The notes under the pieces are model-generated. The model saw only the letters and a program-made list of their open reading frames with translations, was not told where the DNA came from and made no database searches. A program made the position numbers and the translations under genes. A stretch of 64,000 nucleotides of DNA from Wenzhouxiangella sp. AB-CW3 (lineage in GTDB: Bacteria > Pseudomonadota > Gammaproteobacteria > Xanthomonadales > Wenzhouxiangellaceae), in contig NZ_CP061368.1 in NCBI RefSeq assembly GCF_014725735.1, positions 883,225-947,224 on the forward strand, given 5' to 3'. Below, in pieces: positions 7,433-55,290 of the stretch (positions within the stretch are counted from its first letter, which is position 1; every line of letters begins with the position of its first letter).

Positions 7433-8281
7433 ATGAAGCTGATCGAACAACTGCCTGACCTGGGCGCCACGCTGGATGCCTGGCGTCGCGCGGGCGAGAC
7501 GATTGCCCTGGTGCCCACCATGGGCAACTTGCATGATGGTCATCTGGCGTTGGTGGCCGCGGCGCGCGAACGTGCCCGGCGCACCGTGGTTAGTCTGTTC
7601 GTCAACCCGACCCAGTTCGGACCCAACGAGGACTATGAATCCTACCCGCGAACCCTGGATGCAGATCTGGCGGCACTGAAGCAGGCCGGTTGCGACCTGG
7701 TCTGGCGCCCCGATGTTGCAACCATGTATCCGTTCGACGCCGCCTTCATGCTGCGCGTGCCCGATCCGCTGGCCGATCAGCTCTGTGGCGCCTCGCGCCC
7801 GGGTCATTTCGACGGCGTGGCCAGCGTTGTCCTGCGACTGTTCAGCCAGGTCAGGCCGGACTGCGCAGTATTCGGCGAAAAGGACTACCAGCAACTGGTT
7901 ATCATCCGCCACCTGGTCGCGGACCTCTTTCTGGACATCGACATCATCGGCCTGCCGACCATTCGAGAGTCCGACGGCCTGGCGATGAGTTCACGCAATG
8001 CCTACCTGGACCAGGACGAGAGAAGGCGGGCCCCAACGCTGCACCGAGTACTGGTCGAAATGGCCGAATCGCTGGCCGCCGGTGGAGACTTCAAGGCCCT
8101 GCACACAGCCGCCCTGGAACAACTAGAAGCCGCCGGCTTCCACCCCGACTACATCGAATGGCGAACCGCCCGCGACCTCAGCCCCCCACGCCCCGACCAC
8201 CCCTCAAGACTCCTCGCCGCCGCCTGGCTGGGCAAAGCCCGCCTCATCGACAACGTCGCGGTGGGGGGGAAGACAGCGTGA
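7433..8281 (+). CDS. panC: Pantothenate synthetase
   Basis: 282 residues. VPTMGNLHDGHLALV is the HxGH nucleotidyltransferase motif, and EKDYQQLVIIRHLV and MSSRNAYL are further PanC signatures. It joins pantoate and beta-alanine with ATP. panD, often next in the operon, is absent, so beta-alanine must be supplied from elsewhere. The last codons and the stop lie inside the left arm of the repeat element at 8270-8434, so the C-terminal residues KTA come from repeat sequence. Confidence 0.97.
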   Translation: MKLIEQLPDLGATLDAWRRAGETIALVPTMGNLHDGHLALVAAARERARRTVVSLFVNPTQFGPNEDYESYPRTLDADLAALKQAGCDLVWRPDVATMYPFDAAFMLRVPDPLADQLCGASRPGHFDGVASVVLRLFSQVRPDCAVFGEKDYQQLVIIRHLVADLFLDIDIIGLPTIRESDGLAMSSRNAYLDQDERRRAPTLHRVLVEMAESLAAGGDFKALHTAALEQLEAAGFHPDYIEWRTARDLSPPRPDHPSRLLAAAWLGKARLIDNVAVGGKTA

Positions 8282-8434
8282 AGTGTGAAGAGAAAAAGTG
8301 TTAAGGATCAATGAGATGGGCAGGGGTTGCTGATGGCTGATACCTTCTCCCCACCACGAAGCCATCGGCCCCTACCAAAGCACCCGCCCCTTCACACTTA
8401 ACACTTAACACTTCACACTGTCTTTTCTTCACAC
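8270..8434. repeat. Intergenic element A: inverted heptamer-type arms around an 83-base core
   Basis: The left arm (8270-8306) and right arm (8389-8424, fading to 8434) are imperfect reverse complements over about 36 bases. Both are built from GTGTTAA/GTGTGAA/GTGAAGT-type heptamers. The core contains its own inverted repeat, GATGGCT at 8332-8338 against AGCCATC at 8360-8366. It fills the gap between convergent panC and parA and includes the panC stop codon. No protein is encoded. It shares its layout with elements B (51283) and C (55069), and TGATGGCT also occurs in the core of C. Confidence 0.75.
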
Positions 8435-33598: not shown

Positions 33599-33675
33599 AA
33601 GAATTTCCTGGGCATTTATTGCAATTCGGGCAATGTGCGTCCTGGTTAAACCATGGTGCAGTCTCAGTTAATAAT

Positions 33676-33776
33676 GAAACCGCAGATGAACGCTGATGAA
33701 CGCAGATGTTTGCTGCGGGAATTTCTGCTGCAACTGATTGAATCTGTGTTCATCTGCGTTCATCCGCGGTTCAAAA
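33676..33776. repeat. Intergenic element E: 10-base-period arms in inverted orientation
   Basis: The left arm (33676-33708) and right arm (33741-33776) are near-perfect reverse complements of about 31 bases around a 32-base spacer. Each arm is made of GCAGATGAAC-type units repeated with a 10-base period. It lies in the 212-base gap between rnfB and nifJ, so it would be part of the redox-operon mRNA and could fold into a long hairpin there. No gene is seen in the gap. I recall similar GCAGATGAAC repeats in unrelated bacteria, but could not check. Confidence 0.75.
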
Positions 33777-43747: not shown

Positions 43748-43796
43748 GGATGACGTGGGGATTGGAGTGAGTGGATATGATAACCGGCAGGCTGCA

Positions 43797-43917
43797 GTCA
43801 GGTTTCAGCTTTCAGGGTTCAGGTTTCAGGGAAAAGACGGTTTACGCGCGAGTATCATCTGCCGGGAACCGTAACCCGTAACCCGTAACCCGTAACCCGT
43901 AACCCGTAACCCGTAAA
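43797..43917. repeat. Intergenic element D: TTTCAGG-type and GTAACCC heptamer arrays
   Basis: The left part (43799-43836) is a degenerate TTTCAGG-type array. The right part holds six perfect GTAACCC copies (43871-43912) plus a partial seventh. The two arrays are not complementary, unlike elements A-C. The GTAACCC array ends three bases before the ung start codon and occupies the ribosome-binding-site position. The arrays flank a 28-base spacer. No gene lies here. Confidence 0.8.
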
Positions 43918-43919
43918 TC

Positions 43920-44606
43920 ATGAATGATCAGCGTGAGATCAAGTTGCACCCCGAATGGCTGGACGTCCTCGGCGAGGAATTCGACAAGGAATACATGAAA
44001 GCGCTGCGCGCCTTCCTGGTCGAGCGTAGCCGGGCGGGGGCGACGGTTTACCCGCCGGGCAAGCATATTTTCAATGCACTTGATTCAACGCCGTTGTCGC
44101 AGGTCAAGGCGGTGATTCTCGGGCAGGATCCCTACCATGGTCCCGGTCAGGCGCATGGACTGTGCTTTTCGGTGCAGAAGGGCGTGCGGATTCCGCCGTC
44201 GCTGGTCAATATCTACAAGGAAATCGAAGCCGACCTGGGCATCGGCATGCCCGGGCATGGCTATCTTCAGTCCTGGGCCGAGCGCGGCGTGCTGTTGCTC
44301 AATGCCGTGTTGACAGTCGAGCGCGGCAATGCCGGCGCCCACCAGGGCAAGGGTTGGGAGCAGTTCACCGATGCCGTGGTCGATGCCGTCAATACACGTC
44401 GCGACAACGTCGTCTTCCTGCTGTGGGGCAGTCATGCCCAGCGCAAGGGCTCCGGCATCGACACCCAGCGCCACCTTGTCCTCAAGGCGCCGCACCCCTC
44501 GCCGTTGTCGGCACATCGCGGGTTTCTTGGTTGTCGGCATTTTTCGAAGGCCAATGAGTGGCTGGAAAGTCGGGGCATTGTGCCAATCGACTGGCGGCTG
44601 AATTGA
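43920..44606 (+). CDS. ung: Uracil-DNA glycosylase
   Basis: 228 residues. [18 protein letters not shown] is the catalytic motif (Asp in DPYH); [14 protein letters not shown] and [13 protein letters not shown] hold the uracil-binding and DNA-binding parts. It removes uracil from DNA at the start of base-excision repair. The start codon is preceded directly by the GTAACCC array, so no Shine-Dalgarno site exists; expression may depend on array length or on an unusual leader. It is convergent with the DMT gene, 14 bases apart. Confidence 0.97.
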
Positions 44607-50461: not shown

Positions 50462-50660
50462 CAAGGCGCTCTCTGCAGTGTTCGCCAGTGGGATCGCATT
50501 ATGCCTTGTCCCTACTTTCCGACCTAGGGATGGCGACTTTCCGGCTGGTGTGCATATTCGCTCGACCGAGCGAATCGCCTGAAGGCTGGAAGAGCCAACC
50601 CACCTGAACCTCTGGTTCAAGGTCACCGACCCGCAGCGGCACAGGTGGAGAGCGCCGCTT
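50462..50660 (+). ncRNA. ssrS: 6S RNA
   Basis: About 195 bases between zapA and ygfA, the standard ssrS place. The closing stem is perfect: GGCGCTCTC at 50465-50473 pairs with GAGAGCGCC at 50648-50656. Conserved segments are visible: CTGCAGTGTTCGCCAGTGGG at the 5' side, GTGTGCATATTCGCTCGACC in the middle, and CACCTGAACCTCTGGTTCAA near the 3' side, matching the E. coli layout. 6S RNA binds sigma70 RNA polymerase holoenzyme in slow growth. The 3' end is approximate. It is probably processed from a transcript that continues into ygfA. Confidence 0.9.
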
Positions 50661-50689: not shown

Positions 50690-51286
50690 ATGAGCACCGT
50701 GTCAGGCAAGGATGAGCGCAAGTCCGATTTGCGTGCCCGATTGGTGGCTGAACGTCAGCGGCTGACTGCCGCCCGCAGGCAGCAGCTGGACGACCAGATC
50801 TGTGCCCACCTGCAACGACTGGCCGATCGGGATGAGGGCGAGAATCTGGCCGCATACATCGCGTTCAACGGCGAGCCGGATTTGATGCCGGCTCTCGAGG
50901 CCCTGCATCATGCCGGGCGGCGCATTCTCTTGCCGGTCGTCAACGATCAACGCATGCATTTCCTGCGCTGGACACCTGACATGGCAATGCGGCCCAATCG
51001 TTTCGGGATTCCAGAACCCGTTGGCGGTCCCGAGTGCCCGCCGGACCGCCTGCATCTGGTCTTTATGCCGCTGGTCGCCTTTTCACCCATCGGCACCCGT
51101 CTGGGCATGGGAGCCGGCTTCTACGACAGAACCTTCGGCTTCCGACTCGACGATCCCGACGCCGGACCCCGGCTGGTCGGCACCGCCTACGCCCTGCAGG
51201 AAGTCGACGGCCTGCCGGCCGACGAATGGGATGTGCCATTGGATGCGGTGGTGACGGATCGTGGGGTGAGGAGGTTTAGGGCGTGA
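50690..51286 (+). CDS. ygfA: 5-formyltetrahydrofolate cyclo-ligase
   Basis: 198 residues. KDERKSDLRARLVAERQRL at the N-terminus and the C-terminal signature GTRLGMGAGFYDRTFGFR fit the family. It turns 5-formyl-THF into 5,10-methenyl-THF and lies directly after 6S RNA, as in E. coli. Its last codon and stop run into the GTGACAG repeat array. Confidence 0.95.
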   Translation: MSTVSGKDERKSDLRARLVAERQRLTAARRQQLDDQICAHLQRLADRDEGENLAAYIAFNGEPDLMPALEALHHAGRRILLPVVNDQRMHFLRWTPDMAMRPNRFGIPEPVGGPECPPDRLHLVFMPLVAFSPIGTRLGMGAGFYDRTFGFRLDDPDAGPRLVGTAYALQEVDGLPADEWDVPLDAVVTDRGVRRFRA

Positions 51287-51450
51287 CAGGTGACAGGTGA
51301 CAGGTAACAAGTAACAGGGGCAGGGCCTGGTGGCCTTGAAATGCTTCGGTGGCCAATGGAGTGGCCCTGCCGATAGCCAATGTCCATTGAACATCCGATA
51401 ACCATGCCAGATTTTTACCCGTTACCTGTCACTCGTCACCTGTTACCTTA
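51283..51450. repeat. Intergenic element B: GTGACAG/GTAACAG arms around a core
   Basis: The left arm (51283-51325) has three GTGACAG copies followed by GTAACAA and GTAACAG. The right arm (51413-51450) is its approximate reverse complement (GTTACCTGTCACTCGTCACC and similar). The core (about 51326-51412) holds GGCCAATGG at 51351-51359 and TCCATTGA at 51383-51390, a pair also found in element C with a shorter spacing. It overlaps the ygfA stop codon and lies before the EVE gene. No protein is encoded. Confidence 0.75.
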
Positions 51451-55068: not shown

Positions 55069-55290
55069 AGGTAAAAGGTAAAAGGTAAAAGGTAAAAGGT
55101 GAAAGGTGAAAGGTGAAAGGTGAAAGGTGAAAGGTGAAAGGTGAAAGGGTCGAGCGGGTAGCGTTGATGGCTCCAGGGCCAATGGCACGACAAATCCCAT
55201 TGACTACCGCCTGGCCACCTGAATCTCTCCCTCGTGTTACCTTTTTCGTTTCACCTTTTCCCTTTCACCTTTTGCCGTTCACATTCAACC
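55069..55290. repeat. Intergenic element C: 11-copy heptamer array and mirrored arm
   Basis: The left arm is a perfect heptamer array: AGGTAAA four times (55069-55096), then AGGTGAA seven times (55097-55145). The right arm (about 55233-55290) is a degenerate complementary array of TTTCACCTTTT-type units. The core (55150-55232) holds GGCCAATGG at 55177-55185 and CCCATTGA at 55196-55203, and TGATGGCT as in element A. No protein is encoded in the 286-base gap. Confidence 0.85.

Follow-up and report, generated by a model that had tools for sequence, protein, structure and literature searches.

What kind of element carries, at either end of a core, a tandem array of a heptamer specific for that locus, one array mirroring the other? 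The question is raised by three elements, here called A, B and C, of a 64,000-nucleotide stretch of DNA (the window), which covers positions 883225-947224 of a genome assembled as a single contig (3,844,697 bases) and belonging, judging by its genes, probably to a gammaproteobacterium. A first-pass annotation had proposed that the three share one plan with locus-specific heptamers, and this is borne out, also genome-wide. The places and the heptamers of A (8270-8434), B (51283-51450) and C (55069-55290), all located between protein genes, were verified on the sequence and by repeat finding. A adjoins the downstream side of a pantoate ligase gene. Its left arm (8278-8305, plus strand, limits set by eye), a short and degenerate run of GTGTGAA/GTGTTAA, encloses the TGA stop codon of that gene (8279-8281); it is followed by a core with an inner hairpin (8306-8389) and by a right arm (8390-8434, minus strand) made of the reverse complement of GTGTTAA/GTGTGAA, which is the only arm of A found by Tandem Repeats Finder, the left one being worn. 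B lies between the 5-FTHF cyclo-ligase gene (ygfA), whose TGA stop codon (51284-51286) is enclosed by the left arm (51283-51318, plus strand, GTGACAG/GTAACAG), and an EVE-domain gene; its core spans positions 51319-51414 and its right arm positions 51415-51448 (minus strand). C, downstream of a DDAH-like gene, has a left arm of 11.4 AGGTAAA/AGGTGAA units (55069-55148, plus strand), a core (55149-55238) and a degenerate right arm (55239-55282, minus strand). A 6S RNA (RF00013, 99.8 bits) was also recognised at 50467-50655, upstream of ygfA.

When folded as RNA, A, B and C each form a long hairpin with heptamer arms, with energies of -61.5, -79.5 and -87.3 kcal/mol and z-scores of -5.75, -7.22 and -5.70, respectively; in each case, none of 200 shuffles equalled the element. 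Two further tracts of the window, absent from the first-pass annotation, differ in their folding. A decamer hairpin with CGCAGATGAA arms (33675-33776) reaches a z-score of -10.1, and a pair of heptamer arrays which do not mirror each other (43795-43920; TCAGGTT on the left, about 7 units of CCGTAAC on the right) shows a z-score of -1.0 and represents a counter-example. The CCGTAAC array stops just short of the start of a UDG-family gene. Hairpins as strong as those of A, B, C and 33675-33776 would suit a function at the RNA level, with the elements serving as regulatory or processing hairpins (a terminator or an RNase III site) and selection for pairing keeping the arms complementary; the stems of intervening sequences in 23S rRNA are described as RNase III substrates (PMC4990558).

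Similarities between the cores of B and C and between those of A and C had been taken as a hint of common origin. The first of them holds, weakly when the two cores are compared directly (8 of 300 shuffles scored as high) and more firmly through other cores, as none of 300 shuffles scored as high for the core of C against that of the B orthologue in the sister genome G026, for the latter against the core of locus L080, or for the core of L079a against that of L080. The likeness between A and C is at chance level (a score of 18, where 300 shuffles reached up to 23), the core comparison found no relative for the core of A, and a common origin of all three cores is therefore not upheld. The traits of a MITE, i.e. 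terminal inverted repeats, absence of an ORF and several copies with related cores, are seen for B and C by way of these linked cores.

The abundance of heptamer arrays was evaluated in 80 stretches of 20 kb, one per 48 kb, covering 1.6 of the 3.84 Mb of the genome (42%), with cut-offs of our own choice and single-base shuffles. At a score of at least 15, 108 period-7 tracts were found, together with 0, 0, 4, 16, 6 and 3 tracts of periods 4, 5, 6, 8, 9 and 10, and 0, 8, 1 and 12 of periods 11, 12, 13 and 15; period 14, the double of 7, yielded 77. The units come in many dialects, among them AAGTGTG, AGGTGTT, AAAGGTG, AGGGTTC, AGGTTTC, ACAGGTG, ACGGGAG, AAGACGG and ACTCGGG. The longest array of the sample, 330 bases or about 47 units (L059, G000:C1:1369468-1369797), runs through four successive dialects (GGTGTTG, GGTGTTA, AGTGTGA and AGTGGGA). 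Elements of the GTGTGAA dialect (L042, L043, L058, L059, L079 and L087) may have up to two nested array pairs, about 50-70 bases apart, GTGTGAA being the outer and GGTGTTA the inner unit, with a recurrent GGCGGGCTT boundary. A loose scan for GGCCA core hairpins returned mostly background, with arrays on both sides of 3 out of 1531 hits.

Among 54 pairs of neighbouring arrays in the same sample, 31 face inward, 1 outward and 22 have the same direction. Each strong array was further tested against shuffled flanks for a mirrored partner within 450 bp; after dropping 3 of the 108 arrays, too close to an edge, a partner was found on the inward side for 47 out of 105 and on the outward side for none, while 58 have no detectable partner. 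In mirrored pairs, the G-rich strand therefore aims inward from both ends. No leading-strand orientation bias was observed: arrays scoring at least 25 are 16 on the plus and 11 on the minus strand in the first half of the chromosome, and 15 and 15 in the second. The scan suggested by the first-pass annotation thus finds arms which pair by rule, rather than single arrays with random partners, despite the sizeable partnerless fraction. That fraction, more than half, speaks for chance encounters of simple repeats generated by slippage, and two more observations point the same way: the pair at 43795-43920 is not mirrored, and array length differs between sister genomes, the left arm of C, with about 11 units here, being cut to about 1 unit in G024, around the same, orthologous core. 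The ratio of 47 inward to 0 outward partners is contrary to that explanation, as are the results obtained on a second, gene-bearing form of the elements.

This form was recognised through the protein family PF05635 (23S_rRNA_IVP, "S23", a four-helix bundle), represented by six genes in the genome and by none in 14 control genomes. No S23 gene lies within A, B or C. All six genes have heptamer arrays at both ends, of one dialect per gene, although two worn arms, the right one of L115 and the left one of L116, fall under the usual cut-off; the flanks match in inverted orientation for five of the six and in direct orientation for one (L111). A typical order is glyA (SHMT), (ACAGGTG)n, the S23 ORF, the mirrored array, and nrdR. 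No recognised DNA-moving enzyme is encoded by the six elements. Within the same bacterial family, PF05635 is present in 23 out of 43 genomes. Of 41 matches, 34 had loci, and 31 of these, with proteins extracted by tblastn, were tested, leaving out a weak fragment (L153) and two loci without a tblastn match (L151 and L152): flanks are inverted for 23 (1 of which also direct), direct only for 2, and neither for 6. Gene-less elements also occur in G022, G023 and G024, drafts 65-84% complete in which S23 was not found.

A wider set was composed of 80 named S23 loci, the best of at least 591 confirmed ones, picked by likeness to the six proteins of this genome, and is therefore not a random survey; the titles include Proteobacteria, Bacteroidota, Acidobacteria, Planctomycetota, Chloroflexi, Clostridia and others. 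Both flanks could be analysed for 79 loci, L243 lacking flank sequence. They are inverted for 58 (16 of which also direct), direct only for 6 and neither for 15, the inverted count varying with the shuffles between 58, 59 and 60. Altogether, 110 S23 loci were tested, of which 81 are inverted, 8 direct only and 21 neither. Strong direct repeats on both sides of the S23 gene were noticed at L236, L254, L220 and L246, those of L220 having longer, non-heptamer units.

The association was compared with controls. In one shared test, 59 of 79 S23 genes had inverted flanks, as did 4 of the 60 further ORFs examined in these loci, and a period of 7 on both sides was seen for 36 of 79 and 1 of 60, respectively; for PIN-domain genes of the same bacterial family, none of 30 had inverted matching flanks. 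Left and right units were also compared over 36 elements with an array on each side: the mean mismatch is 1.25 bases within and 3.24 between elements, and none of 10,000 permutations gave a value as low as that within elements. Taken with the inward rule, the matching of units within elements and the low frequencies around other ORFs (4/60) and PIN genes (0/30) refute chance pairing as a general explanation and leave it next to no probability, while single unpaired arrays may well be products of slippage. The element class is much wider than the three loci originally noted.

Comparison of the same gaps in sister genomes, a check also proposed in the first-pass annotation, reveals both presence or absence of the elements and changes of arms at orthologous sites. 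Thirty loci per site were collected, of which 21 (ygfA-EVE), 19 (glyA-nrdR) and 21 (C site) are from family members; both genes are adjacent in 17, 19 and 16 of these, respectively. The ygfA-EVE gap, occupied here by B, is short in 7 of the 17 genomes, carries an inverted repeat in 1 (the genome under study), and in 9 is longer without a significant inverted repeat; a lone array is found in four genomes. In G024, only 53 bp separate the two genes (97% identical for EVE, 75% for ygfA). In G026, an orthologous core (0/300 shuffles) is flanked by GGTAAAA-like arms instead of GTGACAG, but these fail the mirror score (16, where shuffles reached as much as 24). The glyA-nrdR gap measures 20-30 bp in 6 congeners, has significant inverted repeats in 10 genomes, and in 3 is longer without them; the 10 include the genome under study and two narrow cases (L277 and L282), and display various dialects, two being of the CGCCAAGG kind. 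At the C site, 7 of 16 genomes have inverted repeats and 9 do not; mirrored arms other than those of C occur in G027, G016, G017, G039 and G035 (narrowly in G017 and G035), and a decamer element in G023.

At several sites, not systematically counted, the left arm begins at or just past the upstream stop codon; a TGA stop falls within the first left-arm units of A, of B and of the element behind glyA. At B, glyA-nrdR and C, the flanks of the sister genomes are too diverged for the junctions to be placed. The elements at these three sites all lie behind a stop codon and between co-oriented genes, a position which would also suit hairpins acting in a transcript.

How, then, do two separated arms stay alike? 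The first-pass annotation had favoured selection on structure or a copying process producing mirrored arms, over simple slippage. That slippage by itself is insufficient is confirmed by arms which match within elements and differ between them, and by a clade of S23 genes, described below, whose dialects differ while the arms still match. The other two proposals fare less well. Of 29 elements, only 4 (1.45 expected) show more agreement between the arms in the order of variant units than chance would give, so that fresh mirror copies are the exception among the arms, and a single recent copying event is not supported as the general cause of their likeness; unit order was accordingly discarded as a trace of one mirror copy. 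Mismatches between arms are wobble-compatible in 24 cases and incompatible in 27; as there is no preference for wobble, RNA pairing is not visibly selected. Together with the congeners lacking the element at the same gap, the 8 of 110 S23 loci whose matching flanks are direct only, and the S23 gene itself, for which a processing or regulatory hairpin offers no role, this makes a function at the RNA level unlikely, in spite of the strong hairpins and of their location. Slippage within arms combined with exchange of units between arms fits the unit-order and wobble results, as well as the dialect comparison reported next; the direct-only loci are at odds with an exchange taking place in a hairpin.

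Dialects do not follow the S23 protein: a Mantel test of dialect against S23 identity gave an r of 0.008, with 1137 of 2000 permutations as low. S23 therefore need not read the heptamer, and seems not to dictate the unit. This bears on the possibility that S23, or another protein, binds the repeated units of both arms, and that selection for recognition keeps them alike, as at the ends of a transposon. Arrays at both ends of S23 genes, of one dialect per element, and the toroidal pentamer described for the Xanthomonas S23 (PMC4990558), agree with such a role; the lack of correlation between dialect and protein disagrees, as do the several dialects that a single S23 clade shows at a single site, and we consider it rather unlikely.

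The site in question lies behind radC, where S23 elements were found in eight genomes of two genera, with radC upstream in all eight. Six of the 30 radC loci first examined carry S23, and most of the others do not. The eight proteins form one clade in a tree of 31 (support 98/95). Three elements have the AGGTGAA dialect, two ACGGGAG and one AAAACGG; in L156 (G032), GGAGAAA/GGGTAGA-like arms match mutually, below the period-7 cut-off, and no matching arms scored for L145 (G012), whose element is interrupted. Inverted matching flanks are present in seven of the eight. The interruption in L145, at about 1230-1530 after reversal, is an insert of about 300 bases with palindromic ends (ACTAGTACCTGCATAAGTATTGCC), located inside the S23 element; the same end sequence is also found near L159, another S23 locus of G012. 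On the sequence comparisons, the radC site would best be read as a single old insertion with two arms that changed in concert; less probably, one S23 lineage inserted there more than once. It offers a natural experiment on the way two separated arms change together.

The S23 protein was modelled with a mean pLDDT of 90, and the model matches the solved S23 structures 2gsc (from Xanthomonas campestris) and 2rld, S23 structures having been released in 2006-2007. The next matches are to Avd of the Bordetella phage diversity-generating retroelement (DGR; 4dwl and 8ube), with TM values of 0.73-0.74, 12-13% identity and E-values of 0.16-0.17. In DGRs, a hairpin/cruciform beside the target is required for efficient homing, and its stem structure matters while its sequence may vary (PMC3240598; Guo et al. 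2011). The two systems are alike in that Avd and S23 appear from the model to have the same fold and in that the stem of the DGR hairpin matters, its sequence being free; they differ in that no reverse transcriptase adjoins the six S23 genes. The relation would be one of resemblance, not of membership. S23 proteins are described as having no known function (PMC4990558), and the IVP family is named in the FLSHclust paper in connection with CRISPR neighbours (PMC10910872).

The resemblance suggests a further explanation, in which the arms are written by templated addition, a short RNA template setting the unit and a partner reverse transcriptase being needed. The Avd fold of the S23 model would be in keeping with it, and so would a unit common to both arms in an order that as a rule is not, and S23 genes lying between direct arrays of one dialect, which exchange in a hairpin does not explain. 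No template was seen on reading the elements, however, and RVT_1, with nine matches in the genome, is confined to one cluster at 3.79-3.82 Mb, distant from all six S23 genes; templated addition is accordingly judged highly improbable. The cluster itself (G000:C1:3792391-3820990) holds its nine matches in about 29 kb, four with identical scores, and perhaps consists of repeated reverse transcriptase genes, e.g. group II introns in array.

Intervening sequences (IVSs) of 23S rRNA genes also exist without an ORF. Those with an S23 ORF were described by Warrier et al. (2016; PMC4990558) in Coxiella, Leptospira and others. Like the present elements, they are small and sporadic, and their complementary ends pair into an extended stem that encloses an S23 (PF05635) ORF; the ORF is found in the gene-bearing form, and stem-forming complementary ends in A-C and in 81 of the 110 S23 loci. 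Since the gene-bearing members hold S23, they correspond to these intervening sequences but lie between genes. They differ in their arms, which are tandem arrays of a locus-specific heptamer, in the many gene-less copies per genome, and in their location: a position within a 16S or 23S rRNA gene was discarded for the named S23 loci, the window and A-C, as no match to an rRNA family at gathering score was found in the window or in any of the 80 named loci.

Many short intergenic hairpins, thought to be moved in trans, are also a feature of REPIN/RAYT systems, and in this respect the elements are alike, but REPINs are not known to have arms made of tandem arrays. An association with RAYT/REP was rejected, as none of the six Y1_Tnp loci of the genome (Y1_Tnp being the only transposase family searched) has heptamer arrays within 1.5 kb. 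The foldback elements of Drosophila (FB, Galileo) share long inverted ends made of short tandem repeats, whose length varies among copies; they are eukaryotic, transposase-linked and far larger.

Intergenic heptamer arrays have been described in other bacteria. In Xanthomonas, GGGAATC heptamers form abundant intergenic arrays, with 70 and 75 convergent pairs in two genomes; Rehm et al. (2015, PMC4692102) interpreted them as G-quadruplex repeats and in general did not find them close to mobile elements. Abundance and convergent pairs recall the arrays analysed here, and one of the solved S23 structures (2gsc) comes from Xanthomonas campestris; the differences are that a single dialect is involved and that the term S23 is absent from the main text of that article. 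The TAACTGA repeats of Beggiatoaceae and Cyanobacteria have a scattered phylogeny, for which horizontal transfer is suspected, and a single inverted pair in the main genome studied, and a translational role has been proposed for them (MacGregor 2015, PMC4679880). They are similarly intergenic, of unsettled origin and patchy distribution, and differ by the presence of only one inverted pair and by the absence of the term S23 from the main text of that report. A link between S23 and heptamer arrays was not found among the titles and abstracts listed in full-text searches of open-licence PMC papers.

A parallel class is built around PDDEXK_3 (PF13366) genes. Of 30 loci in the same bacterial family, 26 were tested (four partial or weak ones were left out) and one flank was too short; mirrored flanks were found in 23 of the remaining 25. 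The arm period, where readable, is mostly 10, 9 or 8, and never 7. In other families of the class, 9 of 11 matches were tested, leaving out one below cut-off and the locus of the genome under study, and 7 of the 9 have mirrored flanks. The PDDEXK_3 gene of this genome (L372) sits between CGCAGATGAA decamers, and because the same unit makes up the arms at 33675-33776, the decamer hairpin of the window is taken as a gene-less member of this class. The existence of a parallel class with arms mostly of 8-10 bases suggests a general design.

From these results, A, B and C probably belong, as MITE-like members without a gene, to a class of foldback mobile elements found between genes; their insertion would be aided by S23, and their arms would be renewed by slippage and exchange. 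The arms would fold a transcript, or a single DNA strand, into one long hairpin; S23 would bind the hairpin and help its insertion, at several sites just behind a stop codon, acting in cis or, for the gene-less copies, in trans. Once inserted, the arrays would lengthen and shorten by slippage, and new unit variants would enter both arms through template switches from one side of the hairpin to the other; with variants spreading to both arms in this way, the dialect would drift and the mirror would stay. We thus infer, from the comparison of sequences, the movement of the elements, the part of S23 in it and the exchange between arms. The strong arrays with no mirrored partner, the gene-less elements of drafts in which S23 was not found, the altered B arms of G026, the S23 loci whose flanks are direct only or do not match, and the six elements encoding no recognised DNA-moving enzyme count against this reading.

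The origin of over-represented heptamer repeats in bacterial genomes was left unsettled by earlier work (PMC4692102). S23 genes of many phyla are enclosed by mirrored heptamer arrays, and gene-less copies are scattered in this genome and its relatives; this links such arrays to S23, so that the origin of the heptamers and the function of S23 become testable together. More tentatively, and somewhat against our own expectation, the elements might represent a widespread, previously unrecognised class of mobile elements with mirrored tandem-repeat arms, whose period would be typical of the family of the small protein encoded: 7 or occasionally 8 where this is S23, with its Avd fold, and 8 to 10 where it is a PDDEXK_3 nuclease. 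Such elements would insert behind stop codons by way of a hairpin and rewrite both arms together; most bacterial heptamer repeats would then be arms of such elements, or their relics.
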